From a virus: DNA of 43,642 bases. The DNA is taken from IMG/VR virus record IMGVR_UViG_3300046517_000786, positions 1-43,642 of that record; one strand, written 5' to 3'. A program made the translations under genes and the position numbers. The notes beneath the pieces are model-generated. The model saw nothing but the letters and a program-made list of their open reading frames with translations. It did no database searches and was not told the DNA's origin. Of the stretch, positions 2,270 through 43,642 are shown piece by piece (positions within the stretch are counted from its first letter, which is position 1; each line of letters starts with the position of its first letter).

Positions 2270-2314
2270 TGTGTTTGTGGGTTTCAGAGGTGAATTTGAT
2301 TAACTGTGCTTGAG

Positions 2315-2341
2315 CTTATACAATGTAAGACAAGACGTCAA
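2315..2341 (-). promoter_or_regulatory. Possible leftward sigma-70-type promoter
   Basis: On the minus strand TTGACG (2336-2341) is followed by TATAAG (2315-2320) with a 15-base spacer, which is shorter than optimal. It overlaps the stop codon of the 51-residue gene and would drive the gene at 2075-2269 and those after it. The boxes are good; the short spacer lowers confidence. Confidence 0.35.
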
Positions 2342-2493
2342 GCCTTTTGTGAAATCTTTTTCAACTTTCTTTTCGCAGCAAAATTACGTCGCGTAGCTCG
2401 TGCGCCTTTTTCTCTCCATGCCTGGCGTTGCGCTTCTGTAGTAATTTTCTTAAGTGCGGCGTATCCCTTTCTGCCCATTTGAGAAGATGTCAT
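2338..2493 (-). CDS. KGG-like small basic protein (51 aa)
   Basis: A 51-residue Lys/Arg-rich protein with the pattern GRKG...KKITTEAQRQAW..KG....NF.AKRKL. It is the first gene of the leftward block, behind the TTGACG promoter at 2502-2530. It aligns by eye with the C-terminal part of the 78-residue protein at 7505-7741 (GKKGG...KKTTLTERQAW..KG....NF.AKKL), so the phage carries two members of the family. Similar GKKGG/LTxE/KG patterns occur in small basic bacterial KGG-type proteins. The role is unknown; nucleic-acid binding is plausible from charge. Confidence 0.6.
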   Translation of the reverse strand: MTSSQMGRKGYAALKKITTEAQRQAWREKGARATRRNFAAKRKLKKISQKA

Positions 2494-2501
2494 AGTTAAA
2501 T

Positions 2502-2530
2502 AAGTTAGACGATCGAGGGCTAGACGTCAA
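2502..2530 (-). promoter_or_regulatory. Leftward early promoter
   Basis: On the minus strand TTGACG (2525-2530) and TAACTT (2502-2507) are separated by exactly 17 bases. The ATG of the first leftward gene (2493) is nine bases beyond the -10 box. This is the most upstream candidate for the leftward early operon and lies back-to-back with the rightward candidate at 2548-2574. Confidence 0.5.
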
Positions 2531-2547
2531 GGGTTAAAAATAAAGTG

Positions 2548-2574
2548 TTGACGTAATTTAGAATTTCGTATATT
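2548..2574 (+). promoter_or_regulatory. Rightward early promoter candidate (replication operon)
   Basis: TTGACG (2548-2553) and TATATT (2569-2574) with a 15-base spacer, reading toward the replication genes. Transcripts starting near 2581 would contain the strong RNA structure at 2635-2729 before the first ATG at 2745. The boxes are good but the spacer is short. Confidence 0.4.
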
Positions 2575-2634
2575 CCATCAAGTGTCGGCGGAAAACCGAT
2601 GCGAGTAGCGTAAATGAACTTCATAATCTTAACT

Positions 2635-2729
2635 TTTAATTGTATCTCGGAGTCGTCGCAAGACGGCCTGCAAAGTCTGGTTGTCATTGGCCAAACTCGC
2701 ACAGGTTTCCCCTCCGGGATACAATTAAA
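2635..2729 (+). promoter_or_regulatory. Structured leader RNA with 18-bp closing stem
   Basis: 2635-2652 pairs with 2712-2729 over 18 contiguous base pairs, 17 Watson-Crick and one G-U. Inside are a hairpin CGTC-GCAA-GACG (2654-2665) with a GNRA tetraloop and a second arm. That arm pairs CCTG (2667-2670) with CAGG (2702-2705), continues as AGTCTGG/CCAAACT (2674-2680/2691-2697, one mismatch), and ends in a 10-base loop. The result is a three-way-junction-like RNA ending 15 bases before the ATG at 2745, which lacks a Shine-Dalgarno sequence. CAATTAAA occurs in the 3' arm (2722-2729) and again just inside the gene (2752-2759), so the 5' arm could pair with either copy. It could be a regulatory leader, a small RNA or a replication-origin element; I cannot match it to a known class. 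Confidence 0.6.
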
Positions 2730-2744
2730 TTTTAGATAATTACC

Positions 2745-3080
2745 ATGACGCAATTAAATTTGTTCGACTCGAAACGTGCAGATGATCGTAAGCAGCGCAA
2801 CATGAAAGCGGTACTTGATAATGAAAATGAAAAGTGGAAAGAAGAGGCTTTAATTATTATTAAAATGACAGCACTTACTTTTAAGGAATTTACATTTGAT
2901 GATGTTAGAAGATTGCTAAGAGCAAATAAAAAAGAAGAGCCCCACCATCCAAATGTCTATGGGTCATTAATGAGATTAGCCGCCATAAAAGGCTGGATTA
3001 AGAAGACCGACCGTGTCCGCCCTAGTTCCATGGTTCAAGCTCATTCCAGGAATTTAACTATTTGGGAGTCTAAACTTTAA
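2745..3080 (+). CDS. Winged-helix-like phage protein next to replication genes
   Basis: A 111-residue protein opening the rightward replication block. The C-terminal half has a pattern I recognise from phage replication regions: FTFDDVRRLL, then PHHPNVYGSLMRLA, a GWIKKT turn and a tail ending in VWES-like residues (TIWES). That pattern suggests a small winged-helix DNA-binding domain. No ribosome-binding site precedes the ATG, and the structured leader ends 15 bases upstream, so translation may be controlled there. It is followed after 3 bases by the replication organiser. Inferred role: accessory replication or regulatory protein. Confidence 0.65.
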   Translation: MTQLNLFDSKRADDRKQRNMKAVLDNENEKWKEEALIIIKMTALTFKEFTFDDVRRLLRANKKEEPHHPNVYGSLMRLAAIKGWIKKTDRVRPSSMVQAHSRNLTIWESKL

Positions 3081-3083
3081 TTT

Positions 3084-3923
3084 ATGTACGGAAAACACTT
3101 TCATTCGATGTATACGGGATCAATGGTTGGGTCGGGGGCATTAGTTTTCGCTGTTTGGGGATATGTTATCTCAAACGGCCATTATGAAACAGAAACCATC
3201 GAGTTAAACCCGAAGCTTTTAGCCTTCATCCTGGGCGAAACCGAAGAAACCATTCAGCATGGAATTGATTTTCTAGCCTCCCCCGACCCCAAGTCTAGGA
3301 CAAAGGAACATGACGGCAGAAGATTGATACGACAAGGGGAGTTTCTCTATTTCATCCCAAACCTGAAGAAGTACCGGGACACTTTCGATGAAGAGCAAAG
3401 GAGGACCTACATGAAGGAATACATGAAGGAATATCGTAAACAGCGTAAAACTAACGTAAACACGTGTAAACAAATGTTAACACAAGGAGAAGGAGAAGGA
3501 TACGGAGAAGGAAAAGAAGCAGAGGAGCCTGTCGGCTCTCCTGTCCATGAGTTACCAAGGGGAGCTGAATTAGCGTTGAATGGTGCAAAGAAGCGTTTCA
3601 AGCCGGCTCATCCGTTAAAGCACGAATTGATGAAGTTGTGGGATGTTGAGTACCCCATGTCTCATAATGGCAACTGCTATCACTACACGCCGAAAGATGA
3701 CGTAGCTATTGAAACCCTACTTTCAAAGCATTCCCCGGTTGAAATCATGGAGCAAGCACGGCGCGGCTGGAATTCTAAAGCGGATTTTATTTATCAGAAA
3801 GCTTCAACATTTCCCGGTATCAATCAATTTTGGAATGAAATAGGTAATGATTCAAGATCTGGGAAACCTAAGGGGTCAGTTTTGAAACGATATTTACCAG
3901 AAAGTGAGCTTCCAAAATTATGA
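3084..3923 (+). CDS. Phage replication organiser / initiator-like protein
   Basis: A 279-residue protein. The N-terminus (MYGKHFHSMYTGSM...) followed by a helical segment, then DFLASPDPKSRT and DGRRLIRQGEFLYFIPN (residues ~62-93), is the typical layout of phage winged-helix replication proteins that load a DnaB-type helicase. After residue 100 comes a charged linker with a tandem MKEYMKEYR, then a Gly/Glu low-complexity stretch (GEGEGYGEGKEAEE, ~135-148). The C-terminal ~100 residues form a separate helical domain, perhaps for helicase contact. Its stop overlaps the helicase start as ATGA, which supports joint action. Assignment is from pattern recognition plus context. Confidence 0.7.
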   Translation: MYGKHFHSMYTGSMVGSGALVFAVWGYVISNGHYETETIELNPKLLAFILGETEETIQHGIDFLASPDPKSRTKEHDGRRLIRQGEFLYFIPNLKKYRDTFDEEQRRTYMKEYMKEYRKQRKTNVNTCKQMLTQGEGEGYGEGKEAEEPVGSPVHELPRGAELALNGAKKRFKPAHPLKHELMKLWDVEYPMSHNGNCYHYTPKDDVAIETLLSKHSPVEIMEQARRGWNSKADFIYQKASTFPGINQFWNEIGNDSRSGKPKGSVLKRYLPESELPKL

Positions 3924-5254
3924 GTTTAGAGAAATTTGAAGCATCTATGCGAGAGATTGATGCGATACCTGATTGCATCAATGCCGAAAAGCTAGTCATT
4001 TCCAGCCTTCTTTGTGACAAGTACGGAGAGACTTTTGACTTTTGTTCAAAGCTAAAGCCGTTCCATTTCTTGCTTAGGTCTCACGCGATTATTTTTGAGA
4101 CCATCTTAAAGCTTAGAGGAGAATCAAAGGGAACGGATCTTGTTGTAGTTTCAAACGAGCTTCAAACATCAGGAAAAATCCTGGATGTTGGGGGACATGG
4201 AGAGCTTTCAAAGCTATTCTCATCGTCAGGGTTCGCGAGTCATACTCAAGACCACATTGATTTAATCATCGAAAAGTATCGTTTGAGAAAGATCATTGAA
4301 ATCTGCGAATCAATCAAAAGCAAGGCGTCAAACTCATCAACATCAAGTGAATGTCTTTCAGGTTTGGAACATGATGTTTTTGATTTACAAGACAATGACA
4401 ATTCAAACGAGAATCAATTACAGAGTGCTTGTGATGAACTGGACAAGCTGATTGAAATACGAAGAAAGGGAGAACAAATCACAGGATTGATTACAGGGGT
4501 TAGACCTTTTGATGAAATTTTCTTTGGTTTCCAGCCTTCTCAATACTACGTCCTTGGAGGAATGCCCTCCTCTGGTAAAACCGCAATGGCAGATCAAATC
4601 TGCGGGCAACTTTTAATGAGAGATAAAGCGGTTCTCTATATTTCTTTAGAATCAAATAAAGAGAGAGTCATTGGAAAGCTTGCGTGCAAGTTGGCAGAAG
4701 TTTCTTATTTGAGTTTCATCCGCAATCATTTGTCTAAGGATGAGCTTGAAGAGGTGCAAAAGTTTAGCGCGATTCTTAGGAAGAAGAATTTAATTCTTAT
4801 CCGTCCTTTTGATATTTCCCCCATGGAGATTCGCCCTCTCATTCGTAAGTATAAAAGGAAAGAAAATATCCAATTAGTGATTCTTGATTACTTGCAAAAG
4901 ATTTCCATTCCTTCGGGGTGGGATGAAAGGCGAACGGTTTCAAGAGCATCAACGGAAATTCAAAGGGCTTGCGTCGATACAGGAGTCCCGTCCCTTATTT
5001 TATGCCAACTCAATCGAGAAGTTGGAGAGGGCTCACGACCTTCGATGAGGAATTTAAAGGAGTCTTCTCAAATCGAGCAAGATGCGGACAATGTTGCGTT
5101 GATATGGGGGGAAGTCAATAAGCGCGACCTTCCTTCTACAGACAGATTTTGGCCGTGTACTCTTTCGGTGGATAAAAACAAAGACGGAGCTTCAGGGTTA
5201 GACGTGGATATGGATTTTGAACTAAGAAAAATGATCTTTCACAAAAGGAAATAA
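3920..5254 (+). CDS. DnaB-type replicative DNA helicase
   Basis: A 444-residue protein with both DnaB domains. The N-terminal helical domain (residues ~18-130) begins with the 'AEKLVISSLLCD' type of motif, and a RecA-like ATPase domain starts near 185. Walker A is GGMPSSGKT (213-221) and Walker B is QLVILDYLQKI (about 318-328). Downstream come the expected 'LCQLNREV' and 'SSQIEQDADNV' segments and a basic C-terminus. Length is normal for phage DnaB-like helicases. Role: ring-shaped 5'-3' helicase at the phage replication fork. Coupling by ATGA to the organiser gene fits a loader/helicase pair. No phage DNA polymerase or primase is visible, so host enzymes are presumably recruited. Confidence 0.92.
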   Translation: MSLEKFEASMREIDAIPDCINAEKLVISSLLCDKYGETFDFCSKLKPFHFLLRSHAIIFETILKLRGESKGTDLVVVSNELQTSGKILDVGGHGELSKLFSSSGFASHTQDHIDLIIEKYRLRKIIEICESIKSKASNSSTSSECLSGLEHDVFDLQDNDNSNENQLQSACDELDKLIEIRRKGEQITGLITGVRPFDEIFFGFQPSQYYVLGGMPSSGKTAMADQICGQLLMRDKAVLYISLESNKERVIGKLACKLAEVSYLSFIRNHLSKDELEEVQKFSAILRKKNLILIRPFDISPMEIRPLIRKYKRKENIQLVILDYLQKISIPSGWDERRTVSRASTEIQRACVDTGVPSLILCQLNREVGEGSRPSMRNLKESSQIEQDADNVALIWGEVNKRDLPSTDRFWPCTLSVDKNKDGASGLDVDMDFELRKMIFHKRK

Positions 5255-7338: not shown

Positions 7339-7527
7339 ATGAAGCTTATCACCATCGATCAGGTTTACCGAGAATTAGGAAGAGAGATTGCTTTTATTAA
7401 GATTGATCTTGTGAATGTAAGGTTAGAGCCAGCCAATACTGAGCGAGATGAAAGACTAGAAAAGCTTGAGAGACGGTTGAGACTCAAGCTTCATTTAAAA
7501 CTCATCATAGAGGATCATTTGCTTTAA
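7339..7527 (+). CDS. Small coiled-coil protein of unknown function (62 aa)
   Basis: A 62-residue, highly charged helical protein (ERDERLEKLERRLRLKLHL, residues ~35-53) that could form a coiled coil. It is the last gene of the rightward early block. Its last 23 bases overlap the 3' end of the convergent gene at 7505-7741, so no space is left for a conventional terminator between the two convoys. Confidence 0.5.
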   Translation: MKLITIDQVYRELGREIAFIKIDLVNVRLEPANTERDERLEKLERRLRLKLHLKLIIEDHLL

Positions 7528-7741
7528 GTTTCTTTGCTTTAAAGTTTTCCATTCGTTTTTGTTGTCCTTTAAGTCCCCAAGCTTGTCTTTCTGTCAATGT
7601 GGTTTTCTTGGCTCTCATGAGTCCACCTTTCTTGCCTAACTGAGTTCCAACATCATCGAGATATATGGGTTGACCGCAAGGGCAGAGTAAGGGCTTCCAG
7701 CAACGATTACAGCATAGAGGGGTTTTTGTGTGGGTTTTCAT
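7505..7741 (-). CDS. Small zinc-finger protein with KGG-like tail (78 aa)
   Basis: A 78-residue protein. The N-terminal zinc site has Cys at 10, 11, 14, 20 and 22 (CCNRCWKPLLCPCG), followed by a basic GKKGG...TTLTERQAW..KG region. The C-terminal region is paralogous to the 51-residue protein at 2338-2493. It is the last gene of the leftward block and overlaps the convergent gene's 3' end by 23 bases. Its ATG overlaps the previous stop. Nucleic-acid binding is plausible from the zinc site and charge. Confidence 0.6.
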   Translation of the reverse strand: MKTHTKTPLCCNRCWKPLLCPCGQPIYLDDVGTQLGKKGGLMRAKKTTLTERQAWGLKGQQKRMENFKAKKLKANDPL

Positions 7742-8007
7742 AAGTCTAATTTCTTTAAAACGGCAAGAACTTCAGAGAAGGTTCGGTCTCGTGAATCATT
7801 CCAATCCGAAGAACTATTGATATTTAGAAATGCATTTATCTTTTTATAAACATCCCAAAAAGATTCTGGATAAACCTTTCTTTGCCATCCTAGCAAACAC
7901 CATTTGACGGCTGATTTTGAATCAATTTCAACACAATGATTTTGAGAGTCGGCAGCCATGAATCCTTTTGTCCATGAATCAGCGGTGATTAGTTCATGTA
8001 TTTTCAT
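7738..8007 (-). CDS. DUF6197-like phage protein (89 aa)
   Basis: An 89-residue protein. The segment SAVKWCLLGW (residues ~32-41), the internal WND (~69) and the C-terminal RTFSEVLAVLKK (~74-85) reproduce the pattern of the phage family I know as DUF6197 ('CALGAL ... WND...RT..EVL.LL'). Function of the family is unknown. It is coupled to both neighbours by ATGA overlaps. Confidence 0.6.
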   Translation of the reverse strand: MKIHELITADSWTKGFMAADSQNHCVEIDSKSAVKWCLLGWQRKVYPESFWDVYKKINAFLNINSSSDWNDSRDRTFSEVLAVLKKLDL

Positions 8008-8237
8008 GATTCGAACATCTTATTTGTTAAATAATCTATTTTCTTAACTCGTTCTTTTTGTTGAGCATCTTTCAGGTCTTGTTGTTCATTGTATTCTTCA
8101 AGTCTTCCTAAAGCCCAGGCTCTTACCAGAACTTTTGTCCATCGTTTTGCTCCAAGATTAGATTCTAAATTTACAAAAGATTTTCCCTTATAAAGGATTT
8201 GATTTTCTTTAGTTGTAAAAGGATTAGGTGTTTTCAT
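8004..8237 (-). CDS. Small protein, possible member of a local paralogous set (77 aa)
   Basis: A 77-residue protein. Its first ~50 residues (NPF..ENQILYKGKSFVNL, then AWALGRLEEYNEQ) resemble the proteins at 8428-8625 and 8701-8883, each with an N-terminal NP.../E-N-E strand pair followed by a helix ending GR/GK-x-x-x-x-NE/QE. It therefore looks like a diverged third copy. A charged C-terminal helix follows. The function is unknown. Confidence 0.5.
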   Translation of the reverse strand: MKTPNPFTTKENQILYKGKSFVNLESNLGAKRWTKVLVRAWALGRLEEYNEQQDLKDAQQKERVKKIDYLTNKMFES

Positions 8238-8242
8238 ATTTA

Positions 8243-8431
8243 TTAAGGGTGATATTCATCCATTTCTAGGGTTTCCCATGCAATCATATGCGCATCAAGG
8301 CTGTCCGCTTGAATTACGCCGGTTCTTATGGTTCCGTCTGGGCACTCAATTTCACAAAGGAATTCATGCCAATTATGTTTAAACGTTTGTTCTTTTGAGG
8401 TTAGGTTTACAGTTAAAGTGAGTTTTTTCAT
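8243..8431 (-). CDS. Small protein of unknown function (62 aa)
   Basis: A 62-residue protein, beta-rich (MKKLTLTVNLTSKEQTF; CEIECPDGTIRTGVIQ), with a short C-terminal helix. It lies within the leftward block between members of the local paralogous set and starts in an ATGA overlap. I recognise no family. Confidence 0.5.
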   Translation of the reverse strand: MKKLTLTVNLTSKEQTFKHNWHEFLCEIECPDGTIRTGVIQADSLDAHMIAWETLEMDEYHP

Positions 8432-8625
8432 ATTCCAAATTTATCCATCATAGCTTGAGCGTTGCGGTTGGTTTCCTGCCATTGATCGTATTTTCCCATT
8501 TCATAAGCTTCATTGAGATGCCACACCATTTCATTCGCTTGGGCACGAGTGGTGCAAATGAAGAGGCGTGTTTTATGGATCATGACGTATTCGTTTTCCC
8601 TCCAGAATACTTTTTTCTTTTTCAT
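8428..8625 (-). CDS. Small protein of a local paralogous set (65 aa)
   Basis: A 65-residue protein. The segment ICTTRAQANEMVWHLNEAYE followed by GKYDQWQET aligns by eye with the 60-residue protein at 8701-8883 (IACPSETQAKNWADRLNEAF, GRIYQMNET). Predicted fold: two or three strands and a helix. It begins in an ATGA overlap with the 24-residue membrane peptide. The function is unknown. Confidence 0.55.
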   Translation of the reverse strand: MKKKKVFWRENEYVMIHKTRLFICTTRAQANEMVWHLNEAYEMGKYDQWQETNRNAQAMMDKFGI

Positions 8626-8696
8626 ATTAAATACACAATCAAGCTCCCAATAAGGGCAAAGGTTAATAGGGCAACATCGATAAGGAAGGTATTCAT
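8622..8696 (-). CDS. 24-residue membrane peptide
   Basis: A 24-residue peptide that is almost entirely hydrophobic (core FLIDVALLTFALIGSLIVYL). Its ATG lies four bases after the upstream stop and its TGA overlaps the downstream ATG, filling the only gap between the genes at 8428 and 8701. This tight fit, repeated elsewhere in the genome, is the main support. There is no strong ribosome-binding site. Confidence 0.4.
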   Translation of the reverse strand: MNTFLIDVALLTFALIGSLIVYLI

Positions 8697-8700
8697 GGGA

Positions 8701-8883
8701 TTAAGCTTCTTTAAGTTGTTTAACTGTTTCATTCATTTGATATATTCGACCCTCGTTAAAAGCTTCATTCAATCTATCTGCCCAGTTCTTAGCTTGTGTT
8801 TCAGACGGGCAAGCGATTGAAAAGAATTCATCATTGGTGAATTGATATATTTTATCGCCTAATGGGATATAAGGATTTTTCAT
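8701..8883 (-). CDS. Small protein of a local paralogous set (60 aa)
   Basis: A 60-residue protein. The N-terminus reads MKNPYIPLGDKIYQFTNDE, then the ETQAKNWADRLNEAFNEGR helix region shared with 8428-8625. It belongs to a small tandemly amplified set in this block. No catalytic motif is seen and the function is unknown. Confidence 0.55.
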   Translation of the reverse strand: MKNPYIPLGDKIYQFTNDEFFSIACPSETQAKNWADRLNEAFNEGRIYQMNETVKQLKEA

Positions 8884-8888
8884 ATTAT

Positions 8889-9317
8889 TTATTCGATTGT
8901 AGGTGAAAGGATTTGGTATCCGCCCCAGTCTTGATGAAGATCAAGGGGGAGTTTCTTATCAGAGTCAATCTTCAGGGCGTATCCACGAGCATCACCATTA
9001 ACAAAGAAGCCCTCAGGAATTGAGCCTAGGATTTTTCCAAGTTTATCAGTGATAGCTTTGGAGAAAGCTTCCCATGCGTTTTCATCCGAGTGGAAGTCGA
9101 ATCGATATTGAAAGGATTTTTCGTTAAGCAAATAAGCTTCACCGTTACAGTGAGCAGTTGCGCCGTCATGCGCTACTTTCTCAAGCTTGAATAGTTCAAG
9201 GCTGGCTTTCTTTCCGTTCATGGTGCCGCCACATAGCTTCACGAGTTGCTCGCAAAGGTTATAATGTTTCTCTAGGTTATGCTTTCGGGTGTCTTTTTTA
9301 TTGAGTTTGGTTGTCAT
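8889..9317 (-). CDS. Protein of unknown function (142 aa)
   Basis: A 142-residue mixed alpha/beta protein with two or three Cys and aromatic-rich segments (FQYRFDFHSDENAWEAF, ~residues 69-85). It starts at an ATG in a CGACAATGAC context without a Shine-Dalgarno sequence. It is one of the longest genes in the leftward block. No family is recognised. Confidence 0.6.
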   Translation of the reverse strand: MTTKLNKKDTRKHNLEKHYNLCEQLVKLCGGTMNGKKASLELFKLEKVAHDGATAHCNGEAYLLNEKSFQYRFDFHSDENAWEAFSKAITDKLGKILGSIPEGFFVNGDARGYALKIDSDKKLPLDLHQDWGGYQILSPTIE

Positions 9318-9383
9318 TGTCGTTTCTTTCGTTAGGTTGTTATTGATTGTTTAGTGATCTAAGGTATTTACGGTATTTAATGA

Positions 9384-9551
9384 TTAGATACTCAAGAGTT
9401 TAGAGAGTTCCAGTTGAACTAAAGCTTTAGCTTGATACACAGTTAAACCAAGGGTAGCGGCAAAGGAGGCGCCGCGGGTTGAGTTTAAGAGGTACAGTTG
9501 GTTTTGGAGTTCTTCCGCTTGTTTCATTATGAGAGTTTGATAGGTTGTCAT
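9384..9551 (-). CDS. Small helical protein, first gene of the leftward block (55 aa)
   Basis: A 55-residue helical protein (MKQAEELQNQLYLLNSTRG, then GLTVYQAKALVQLELSKLL) with a possible HTH-like turn at residues ~30-50. It begins 50 bases downstream of the promoter at 9602-9630 and shares the ACACAATGAC start context with the gene at 2075-2269. It could be a small regulator, but that is inferred only from its position as first gene. Confidence 0.5.
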   Translation of the reverse strand: MTTYQTLIMKQAEELQNQLYLLNSTRGASFAATLGLTVYQAKALVQLELSKLLSI

Positions 9552-10694: not shown

Positions 10695-11213
10695 ATGATA
10701 ATTGAACAATGGAAACCTGTTGTTGGATACGAAGGTCTTTATGAGGTTAGCGATTTGGGGAGGGTTAGGTCGATTCACTTTCAAGGGATAAGTAGGATTA
10801 GGATGTTGAGTATGAACCAGAAGAAGAACGGTTATCTGATTACTGAGCTATCTAAAGGGAAAAAGCAGAAAAGGATCTATGTGCATAAGTTGGTTACCCA
10901 AGCCTTTCTTGGAGAGCGTCCATTAGGTATGGAAGTTAACCATAAGGACGGGAATAAGCTTAATGCCGCATTGAGTAATCTGGAGTATGTAACTCAGGCT
11001 GAGAATAGGGATCACGCGCTTAGGACTGGATTGTTTAAGCCTCTATACGGAGAGGATGCTTACGGAGCTAAGCTTACGAATGATAAGGTTCGGAGGATGA
11101 AGAAATTTAGAGCAATGGGCATGAGAATTGTTTTGATTTCTAAACTATTTCGCCTTCCTTACTACCATGTGTCTCTAATCCTTAATGGGAAGATTTGGAA
11201 TAGGATAAATTAG
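10695..11213 (+). CDS. NUMOD4-HNH homing-type endonuclease
   Basis: A 172-residue protein. The N-terminal NUMOD4 motif is EQWKPVVGYEGLYEVSDLGR (residues 4-23). An HNH core follows: VHKLV (63-67), VNHKDGNKLN (81-90), NLEYVT (95-100) and AENRDHA (102-108). The C-terminal ~50 residues (LTNDKVRRMKKF...) form a NUMOD1-like DNA-binding helical tail. It is a free-standing site-specific nicking or cleaving enzyme, typical of selfish insertions in phage genomes, although some phages need an HNH protein next to terminase for packaging cleavage. It sits directly downstream of the putative packaging region with its own promoter. Confidence 0.88.
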   Translation: MIIEQWKPVVGYEGLYEVSDLGRVRSIHFQGISRIRMLSMNQKKNGYLITELSKGKKQKRIYVHKLVTQAFLGERPLGMEVNHKDGNKLNAALSNLEYVTQAENRDHALRTGLFKPLYGEDAYGAKLTNDKVRRMKKFRAMGMRIVLISKLFRLPYYHVSLILNGKIWNRIN

Positions 11214-12383: not shown

Positions 12384-12390
12384 TTAAAGA

Positions 12391-12423
12391 AGAGGGCGGT
12401 TCCCGAAGAGCCGCTCTCTTTTT
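12391..12423 (+). terminator. Rho-independent terminator
   Basis: A 9-bp stem AGAGGGCGG/CCGCTCTCT (12391-12399 with 12411-12419, one G-U) around an 11-base loop, followed by a run of T (12419-12423). The next ATG is only four bases after the T run, so the following gene needs read-through or a promoter inside this region. Confidence 0.8.
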
Positions 12424-12426
12424 CTT

Positions 12427-12639
12427 ATGAAGAAGAAGAAGCAAAGTGAGCATGGTAAGAAGGCGAGACGAAGAACGGATAAGCGTGGTCCTTATAAGAA
12501 GAGTGATAGCATTACATTAGACGGCCAAACTCTCTACCGAGGACTTAATGGTAAGTTTAAGCTCAATGAGAATGTGGACGTCAGTGACGGAGTTTTTTAT
12601 GTCAATCGTTTGGGATGGGTTCCAAAGAAATTAAAATGA
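12427..12639 (+). CDS. Small basic protein of unknown function (70 aa)
   Basis: A 70-residue protein. The N-terminal third is strongly basic (KKKKQSEHGKKARRRTDKRG), followed by a small beta-rich domain (ITLDGQTLYRGLNGKFKLN, DVSDGVFYVNRLGW). It starts right behind the terminator and its TGA overlaps the ATG of the glycosyltransferase as ATGA, so the two are probably translated together. No family is recognised. Confidence 0.5.
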   Translation: MKKKKQSEHGKKARRRTDKRGPYKKSDSITLDGQTLYRGLNGKFKLNENVDVSDGVFYVNRLGWVPKKLK

Positions 12640-20167: not shown

Positions 20168-21115
20168 ATGTCTACAGTAATTACAAGTAGCATGTTGAGT
20201 GCGGTTGATGCTCGGTTGCGCTCAATGTTCTTCGAAACCAATGCAACGATCCCGATGATCGCAAAGCAGATCCTGCTCCAAAAGACCACGGATCGTGCTT
20301 ACGAAATTGTTAACCGTGTCGTGGGACAAGGTGAAGCGACGGAAGTTGCTGAAAACGGTGCTTATCCTCAGAAGGAAATCAAGCAAGACATTGCAATCAC
20401 AATCCAACCCAAGAAGTTCGGATTCATTACTGACGTATCCCGTGAGTTGATTGAAGATAACCTCTTCACCTCGATTCAGGATAGCGTTGCTAAAGGAATG
20501 CGCAACTCGATGGATCAAACTCATGAACGACGAGGACTTAACCTTCTCAACAACGGGTTCACAACTCAGTTGGCTGAAGATGGCTTGAGCCTTTTCAACA
20601 CTGTTCATGTTCTGGTTAATGGTGGAACTCAATCAAACCGTGCTTCAGTAGCTACGGCACTTGATATTGATTCACTATGGACTGGTCGAAACACCATGAA
20701 GACTACCAAGGGTAATTCTGGTTTGTTCGATAACATCTATGATGCAAAATTCATTGTGGTTCCTCAAGCTCTTGAGCGTCGTGCAAACGAATTGATTAAG
20801 AGCGAATGGGTTCCTCAATCCATGGAAAACCAAGCTAACGTTATTGGTTCACTAACAAATATGACGGTTCTCACGAGCCCTCTATTGACCTCTGACACAG
20901 CATGGTTCTTGGTTGCTAACCCTTCCGAAGTTCTGTCCTTCGCATTGGTAAATTACCAACGCAAAATGATGAACATTACTTCGCTCTTCAATGTTACTGG
21001 TTCTGTTGAACTGGGTAACGCTGTTGATAAAGATGTGTTTAGCTGGAAAACCAGTGAACGTTTCGAAGTTGCAACTCCGACATGGTTCGGGGTGTATGGA
21101 AACGCTGGAGCCTAA
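20168..21115 (+). CDS. Major capsid protein (HK97 fold)
   Basis: A 315-residue protein. Order of elements: N-terminal arm (1-60), QGEATEVAENGAYPQKEIKQ (E-loop region, ~68-87), a helical P-domain spine with DNLFTSIQDSVAKGMRNSM (~105-123) and HERRGLNLLNNGF, then the conserved stretches LFNTVHVLVNGGTQSN (~143-158), FIVVPQALERRANEL (~198-212) and VLTSPLLTSDTAWFLVA (~237-253). The last of these is typical of Mu gpT/HK97-like coat proteins. The length suits a small T=7-type head. A strong terminator follows directly, as expected for a very highly expressed gene. Confidence 0.85.
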   Translation: MSTVITSSMLSAVDARLRSMFFETNATIPMIAKQILLQKTTDRAYEIVNRVVGQGEATEVAENGAYPQKEIKQDIAITIQPKKFGFITDVSRELIEDNLFTSIQDSVAKGMRNSMDQTHERRGLNLLNNGFTTQLAEDGLSLFNTVHVLVNGGTQSNRASVATALDIDSLWTGRNTMKTTKGNSGLFDNIYDAKFIVVPQALERRANELIKSEWVPQSMENQANVIGSLTNMTVLTSPLLTSDTAWFLVANPSEVLSFALVNYQRKMMNITSLFNVTGSVELGNAVDKDVFSWKTSERFEVATPTWFGVYGNAGA

Positions 21116-36615: not shown

Positions 36616-38583
36616 ATGGCCACTGATGAATTTGGCGGGATAGAGGCTGAAGATCCTCAGCAAACCACTGATGAATTTGGTGGAGTAGAATATCAAACTC
36701 CTCAATACTCCCCTCCCACTCCTGAGAACGTCCCTCTAAAGTATCAAGAAAGAACCGGTACTGGAGAGACGATGACTAGGGCTGAGGCAGCCAAGCTTGC
36801 TAAGTACCGTGCTATTTACAGAGAGTCTCAAGTTCCTGAGGATGTATTAGCAGCTAGGGGTGAGAATGAGGCTAGAATGCCTCTAAATGAGGAGTCTTGG
36901 AGAAGTCATCTCCCTCTCCACGGATATAATGAGGCTCAAGATCAAGGCTTTAAAACAGGGATGGATCTTGGAGAAGCTACGCTTGGAAAGAATATTGCCG
37001 GCAAAACTTTGGGTGGAGCCGTTGGTCTTCCATTTGCTCTCGCTAGAGGGATTTTAACCACTCTAAACCCTATCGGTAAAATCACTCCAGACATTGCTCA
37101 ATTAGTTCAAGCTGTTGGAGAAAGGCAGGGGGCTTTAGCGCAAGCAAAGACCATGGACGAATTTCATAAGTTAGATACTTCTGGAGAAACTCTGACCGGA
37201 GAACGTCCAGTAGAAGCTAATGTCAAGTTTGGTAATGCTAATACTGGCTCTCAATCCTTGGACACCGTTTTAAATGTAGGGAGCGAGCTTGCAGACATGG
37301 CACAAAAGGATCCAGTTGGAGCCGGGCTTCTTCTGACTTCAGTCAAACCAACCTTTGAACAATGGAAGGGGCAACAAGCTCTGCGAGAAGTTAAGAAGGT
37401 TAATCAAGCTAAAGCCGAAGCAGCTAAACTTGCTCCTAGAGTCTATGGAGATACCGGCGGGATTGATCGTCTTCAAAAGATGGTTGCTAATACTGATGCT
37501 GAAATTCTTCGAGCCAATCCTGATATTGGTGTGAAAACAGATATGCCCGAGAGCGTTGAATATCACCAAGCTTTATTGAATACAGAAGAAGCTATTGCGG
37601 CTGAAAAGGCTGCTCTAGCAGATACTGGTGCTGTGGGTGGGACAACTCCAAATGAAGTGTTTAATTTCGGTAAGAATTTAGATAATCCAGAGATGGTTAG
37701 AAAGAATGTTAGGGCTGATCTTAAGAGGGATATTCCTGATTTGGATGTATCATTTGACCCGGCTGAAGTTGAAACAATGATTGATAAAATCATCACTAGC
37801 TATAAAAAGCCTTTAACGTTCAAAGAGCTTCATGCTTCCGGTAAAACCATTAATAGGACCACGAGTAAAACCTTTAATCCTCTCGACCCTCGATCTGGAA
37901 AACCTCCGACTGAACTGGAAGGAAAGGTTAATGAAGTTATTCGAGATCGTGTATCCAAAAAGATAAGTGAGAAACTTAATGATTTCGATCCTGTCAGAGG
38001 TGGTGCTTTGAATAAAAAGCACAGCGATATTATCACTCTACGAAAGATGTACGAAAAGAAGATGGGACCGACTGCAACCAGAGCCAAAGCTTATCTTGAA
38101 CAGGCTGGGATAAAAGGAGAGACAGAGCTTGGAGCTTTGAGATCCATTGCCGCAGCTATTCATGGTAATCCTGTGTGGGCAACCGCTGAAGGATTGTTAG
38201 CTCTTAAGAATCTCAAAAAATCCTTTGGTAAAGACATTAACTCTTTAAATTCCTTGGTTAAACAAAGAATCGATCTTTTAAAAGGAAGGGCTGCTCCAAT
38301 CAAGCAACCTACAATTCAGGAATGGATGCAAACTCCAGAAGGTGCTGCAAAGCTTTCCCAGAGACTAGCTGAGAATAAAGCTGCTGATCTTGCCGAACTG
38401 CAAAAGCAACAAAGATCTCAATCCAAACAGGCTAAATATCAAATGGAAGTTGAGAGACGAAAGAATCAATTAGCTGATCTGGAAGCTAAGAGAGCGGCAG
38501 ACCAAGCTAAGATTGAACTTGAGAGCATGAGACAGGGTCCACCTACACCACCTCCGTTTTATCAATCTGTGCTACCGGATTAG
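36616..38583 (+). CDS. Large helical ejection-type protein (655 aa)
   Basis: A 655-residue protein starting 2 bases after the previous gene. The N-terminus has two copies of a TDEFGG(I/V)E motif (residues ~3-9 and ~17-23), then long helices. There is a moderately hydrophobic Gly/Ala-rich region (NIAGKTLGGAVGLPFALARG, ~118-137), which could contact membrane. A charged coiled coil (~575-640) precedes the Pro-rich end. It is the last gene of the late block; size, composition and position fit a podovirus ejection protein such as P22 gp16/gp20 or T7 gp16. Its last 41 bases overlap the convergent HNH gene. Confidence 0.5.
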   Translation: MATDEFGGIEAEDPQQTTDEFGGVEYQTPQYSPPTPENVPLKYQERTGTGETMTRAEAAKLAKYRAIYRESQVPEDVLAARGENEARMPLNEESWRSHLPLHGYNEAQDQGFKTGMDLGEATLGKNIAGKTLGGAVGLPFALARGILTTLNPIGKITPDIAQLVQAVGERQGALAQAKTMDEFHKLDTSGETLTGERPVEANVKFGNANTGSQSLDTVLNVGSELADMAQKDPVGAGLLLTSVKPTFEQWKGQQALREVKKVNQAKAEAAKLAPRVYGDTGGIDRLQKMVANTDAEILRANPDIGVKTDMPESVEYHQALLNTEEAIAAEKAALADTGAVGGTTPNEVFNFGKNLDNPEMVRKNVRADLKRDIPDLDVSFDPAEVETMIDKIITSYKKPLTFKELHASGKTINRTTSKTFNPLDPRSGKPPTELEGKVNEVIRDRVSKKISEKLNDFDPVRGGALNKKHSDIITLRKMYEKKMGPTATRAKAYLEQAGIKGETELGALRSIAAAIHGNPVWATAEGLLALKNLKKSFGKDINSLNSLVKQRIDLLKGRAAPIKQPTIQEWMQTPEGAAKLSQRLAENKAADLAELQKQQRSQSKQAKYQMEVERRKNQLADLEAKRAADQAKIELESMRQGPPTPPPFYQSVLPD

Positions 38584-43449: not shown

Positions 43450-43637
43450 TTCTTCTCCTTCGATAACAGGTGAATTCCGCAAATGAAGGGGATGAAGATA
43501 AGGACAAAAGATATAACAAAACTAAGAAAATACCGTCCTTGATTTTTAAGGAAAATAATATCAATCCAAGCATAGATACAAAATATTAACAAAGCCGCCA
43601 TCGGACTCATCAACAAGTATGCTAGAAATCGTTTCAT
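43446..43637 (-). CDS. Two-TM membrane protein (63 aa)
   Basis: A 63-residue protein with two hydrophobic segments (~4-25, FLAYLLMSPMAALLIFCIYA, and ~36-56, YFLSFVISFVLIFIPFICGI) and a charged loop between them. It ends in KEKK. This small two-TM layout is holin-like, but its early-operon position argues against a lysis role. Superinfection exclusion or host-membrane modification are alternatives. Its start lies in the duplicated terminus, and its ATG overlaps the stop of the gene at 119-361 across the contig junction. Confidence 0.6.
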   Translation of the reverse strand: MKRFLAYLLMSPMAALLIFCIYAWIDIIFLKNQGRYFLSFVISFVLIFIPFICGIHLLSKEKK

Positions 43638-43642
43638 GATCT
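43516..43642. repeat. Terminal direct repeat, right copy (127 bp)
   Basis: Identical to 1-127. It contains the start of the gene at 43446-43637. Together with the left copy it indicates that the genome was assembled as a circle of 43,515 unique bases. Confidence 0.95.

Follow-up and report, generated by a model that had tools for sequence, protein, structure and literature searches.

A solitary 18-bp inverted repeat closes a candidate structured leader ahead of the replication operon of an environmental tailed phage

Introduction

A phage that takes over its host can naturally be controlled at the structured leader of its replication operon. The put RNA of phage HK022 acts through RNA polymerase by suppressing pausing and termination, and RNase III processing sites occur in the early mRNAs of phages, as in the T7-like group. 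Few structured replication-operon leaders have so far been described outside model phages, and still fewer in hosts that make little use of Shine-Dalgarno (SD) motifs.

The 95-nt element analysed here (2635-2729) resembles several described systems in part. With T7-like RNase III sites it shares a long duplex (here 18 bp) with an irregular top ahead of early genes, but it lies in a 5' leader instead of between genes, and its cleavage would be putative. Its closing stem and two arms are comparable to several three-way-junction RNAs among the structured leaders and riboswitches of Rfam, but it has no Rfam match at the gathering score. The put RNA of HK022 is ~70 nt long and consists of two adjacent stem-loops near early promoters (PMC9378689). 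The likeness here is a compact structured RNA, in this case predicted, close to where an early transcript of a phage begins; however, put has its two stem-loops side by side without an outer closing stem, whereas here a long stem closes a branched top, which is not the put arrangement (PMC9378689).

Results

Genome and setting

The window referred to throughout is the whole stretch of 43,642 bases that makes up virus record IMGVR_UViG_3300046517_000786. Its two ends overlap exactly over 127 bases (1-127 and 43516-43642), and the genome is therefore most likely complete, with either a closed circle or terminal repeats. It most likely belongs to a tailed phage, as the window has matches to capsid, portal and terminase; the phage is environmental and nearly without sequenced relatives. 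Leftward genes and a rightward replication operon both start from a divergent intergenic region at ~2494-2744. The operon begins with three genes:

2745-3080, + strand: first operon gene, a 111-aa winged-helix-like protein (weak PHROG matches)
3084-3923, + strand: a 279-aa protein, with a replication function suggested by position only
3920-5254, + strand: a DnaB-like replicative helicase (phrog_19, 2.8e-64)

The helicase also matches TIGR00665 at 4e-64, which is under the curated cut-off of that model, and its presence bears out the placement of the element in a replication-operon leader by the initial annotation. Phage proteins 29-41% identical to the 111-aa protein were found, and its AlphaFold model (pLDDT 81) gave weak PDB fold matches only, while profile and sequence searches detected no relative of the 279-aa protein. 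Elsewhere the window holds a NUMOD4-HNH homing-type endonuclease gene (10695-11213), a strong hairpin that resembles a terminator, with a T-run behind it, immediately upstream of the gene at 12427 (12387-12423), and a near-perfect hairpin with a 17-pair run within the opening codons of the gene for the major capsid protein (20192-20228).

Closing stem and fold

The predicted fold of the element comprises a closing stem and two arms:

2635-2652, + strand: 5' arm of the closing stem P1 (fold, inverted-repeat search, stem rarity)
2712-2729, + strand: 3' arm of P1 (fold, inverted-repeat search, stem rarity)
2654-2665, + strand: P2, a CGUC-GCAA-GACG hairpin with a GNRA-type loop (fold; interior alone not significant)
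2666-2706, + strand: P3, an arm interrupted by internal loops, whose upper stem includes three G-U pairs (fold; interior alone not significant)

The main features that had been noticed from the letters held up: the 18 contiguous pairs of P1 are unbroken (17 Watson-Crick pairs and one U-G, 2647/2717), they enclose a GNRA-capped hairpin and a second arm, and exactly 15 nt separate the end of the element from the ATG at 2745. The comparison with shuffled controls that had been proposed as a check gave a minimum free energy of -40.8 kcal/mol against -21.2 ± 2.9 kcal/mol (z -6.68), with none of 200 shuffles as stable. Neither temperatures from 15 to 55°C nor a change to two other sets of RNA parameters altered the fold, except for the terminal pair of P1 and a single pair at the P3 tip. 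P1 is also the sole stem in the genome with at least 15 bp, at most one G-U pair and at least 20 nt enclosed, and a 17-18 bp stem of this kind appeared in one of 200 shuffled genomes (0.5%).

The interior alone (59 nt, 2653-2711) gave a z of -1.58, with 19 of 200 shuffles equally stable, and the opposite strand of the whole element reached -38.9 kcal/mol (z -5.8). Since the interior is ordinary and both strands fold, the significance resides in the inverted repeat P1 alone. The long inverted repeat is thus real, and a three-way-junction RNA is a reasonable model of how its transcript might fold. The G-U pairs, one in P1 and three in upper P3, become A-C mismatches on the - strand. As P1 stays unbroken on the + strand through its U-G pair and acquires an A-C mismatch on the other, the + strand is slightly favoured for an RNA, which is a mild hint and no proof.

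Leader and start region

Two further features lie upstream of the element:

2548-2573, + strand: promoter-like TTGACGT...TATAT with 15-17 nt spacing, reading TTGACGTAATTTAGAATTTCGTATAT (consensus match, putative)
2582-2602, + strand: small hairpin where the transcript is predicted to begin (-8.2 kcal/mol, z -1.95; weak alone)

Promoter-like matches were not rarer across the genome than chance would have it (six found, 7.2 expected), and a stricter scan did not list the one at 2548-2573; for these reasons the promoter is treated as putative. Three of the five genomic copies of TTGACGT fall within 2335-2554, two of them pointing leftward and one rightward. A transcript is predicted to start near 2580, which would give a leader of ~165 nt. 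With the element folded, the stretch ahead of the ATG at 2745 is mostly unpaired (AU-rich 2738-2747). This ATG does lack an SD sequence, as had been pointed out, but it is nothing special in this respect: 51 of the 64 genes scored have no SD motif, and only 13 have so much as a weak one. Where SD use is low, unstructured leaders are an established alternative (PMC3155529, PMC5397173).

The initial annotation had further proposed that the 5' arm could switch to pairing with CAATTAAA inside the coding start. That copy exists, at 2751-2758 and not at 2752-2759, but the alternative pairing is 12.8 kcal/mol worse, and the partner is transcribed only once the closing stem is complete. An alternative-pairing switch requires a second structure of similar energy by which the start is masked or freed, and none was found for this pairing, the only one that the test covered. 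The suggestion of a small RNA fared no better, as P1 has no trailing T-run and a terminator scan listed nothing at this place. An intrinsic terminator has a G+C-rich stem with a T-run directly behind it, whereas this stem has an AU-rich base and TTTTAG after it.

Search for relatives

No Rfam 15 family reached its gathering score, in line with the earlier impression that the element belongs to no nameable RNA class, and relaxed thresholds returned only a chance hairpin match (E 1.5). Exact patterns of stem and core gave no hits in viral contigs, or chance matches within unrelated sequence. A covariance model (R1), which was built from one sequence and so finds only fairly similar RNAs, retrieved the window itself and nothing else from 181 sources and 50 whole records. 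The search for close relatives by helicase, terminase and the 279-aa protein returned one record, 99.9% identical, which does not include the stretch with the element. The wider helicase set had identities of at most 31% and the best of the capsid set reached 58%, on a 6.6-kb contig; no helicase match was found in the records of the capsid relatives, in a search run without a positive control. The leaders of distant relatives of the winged-helix first gene were not unusually folded, and none had such an element. A host search via the capsid gave one 28% match in a Cellvibrionales MAG and was uninformative.

The long stems surveyed in other phage loci proved to be terminators, repeats and unrelated elements, with no homologue among them; unrelated stems of at least 18 bp occurred about once per 240 kb. 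In another phage, locus L100 offers an analogue, an unrelated 20-bp stem without a T-run (4100-4171); a single base separates its end from an ATG (4173), and a DnaB gene follows ~0.8 kb downstream. Elements of 74 nt that have a 15-bp stem recur upstream of a phage helicase in L034 (2645-2718), L037, L042, L047, L051 and L053, with others in L050; in the copy from L034 there are inner hairpins and a GGTTCGAATCCC stretch that resembles a tRNA T-arm. None of the searches found a relative of the element in the window.

Discussion

Tentatively, and as the first choice among the readings weighed, I favour the view that the rightward replication operon may have in this element a structured 5' leader that is specific to the lineage, acts in cis and controls mRNA stability, processing or translation. 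Support comes from the stability and rarity of P1, from its place behind the promoter-like sequence and ahead of the operon's first gene, from an open frame across the element that is not gene-like (see below), and from the U-G pair that keeps P1 unbroken on the + strand. The mostly unpaired start region combined with low SD use also speaks for a leader, and the lack of a T-run, which argues against a classical terminator, was counted on the same side. Counted against it are the lack of any relative of the element in the searches, the non-significant interior and the folding of both strands, as well as distant first-gene relatives that have no such leader and a promoter that is a consensus match only.

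If the element is such a leader, transcription would begin at the putative promoter near 2548 and the leader RNA would fold into the 18-bp stem with its branched top, leaving the AU-rich and mostly unpaired 2738-2747 to the ribosomes of an SD-poor host. The element would then most likely set the life and the output of the replication mRNA, either because decay from the 5' end is blocked or because the long duplex is bound or cut by RNase III or a phage protein. Neither a ligand nor strand switching is part of the route proposed here.

Second to the leader comes an element acting at the DNA level, which I consider unlikely but well ahead of the remaining readings: a part of the origin or a neighbour of it, or an operator, for instance for the winged-helix product, and its role during initiation would be played as DNA or else by a hairpin in single-stranded form. 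That the two strands fold almost equally fits this, as does an 11-nt direct repeat:

2722-2732, + strand: first copy of CAATTAAATTT, at the end of P1 and beyond (repeat search)
2751-2761, + strand: second copy, in the coding start (repeat search)

After detrending, the cumulative GC skew is lowest at 2480 and highest at 38,200, and gene orientation switches at the same places. The leftward genes at 7.5-9.5 kb (window 7505-9551) have a third-codon-position skew of -0.20, compared to +0.21 and +0.06 for the remaining leftward genes, which hints at an influence of replication or at a recent inversion. Because of this opposite skew, the switch near 2.5 kb does not follow from gene orientation alone, and an origin near 2.5 kb is plausible. 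The earlier suggestion that the element forms part of an origin agrees with the skew minimum; however, a direct-repeat search of 2270-3930 found no iteron array, as an iteron-type origin would have. Moreover, a simple operator would not be expected to have a spacer of 59 nt, the skew arms are very unequal (36 kb and 8 kb), and skew does not resolve 100 nt and so cannot place the element within an origin.

Translational coupling would involve a frame that the initial annotation did not mention:

2614-2739, + strand: 41-aa open frame spanning the whole element, with its stop 5 nt before the next ATG (frame scan)

Ribosomes would read this frame, unfold the element, stop and re-initiate at the ATG at 2745, with the structure metering the process. 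The extent of the frame and the place of its stop are what such coupling would need, but its codon score (-0.19) is below that of every genuine in-frame stretch sampled and of most off-frame ones, and no SD motif is present at 2614. Another frame is likewise open through most of the element, so chance explains the openness. The frame is probably fortuitous and coupling improbable.

About as improbable is a chance inverted repeat without function. The ordinary interior and the frequency of comparable unrelated stems in other phage loci would allow for it, but few shuffled genomes reach such a stem, and this one is located in a short leader that is non-coding and belongs to a key operon. It is very improbable that a small palindromic mobile element (REP or MITE) left this remnant: 18-bp terminal inverted repeats do flank 59 nt, but such a remnant should come in multiple copies or with a target-site duplication, and the phage genome holds one copy only, between flanks (TTAACT and TTTTAG) without a duplication, with no further copy found by exact pattern in viral contigs or by DNA search of phage and plasmid records. 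Least probable of all is a processive antitermination RNA early in the operon transcript, of the kind seen in put with its ~70 nt and two stem-loops near early promoters (PMC9378689). The compact multi-hairpin leader shortly after a promoter-like sequence would suit it, but the element forms a single closed three-way structure where put has two neighbouring stem-loops, and it has no second copy in the genome, hence none ahead of the leftward genes.

There is also a slim prospect that the element represents a new class of phage replication-leader RNA, in which a three-way junction with a GNRA cap, at the origin or next to it, would couple transcription of the operon to origin firing or to processive transcription. 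The element is a sound and statistically supported, unassigned candidate; should it act as RNA, a lineage that has hardly any sequenced relatives would possess in it a compact regulatory element.
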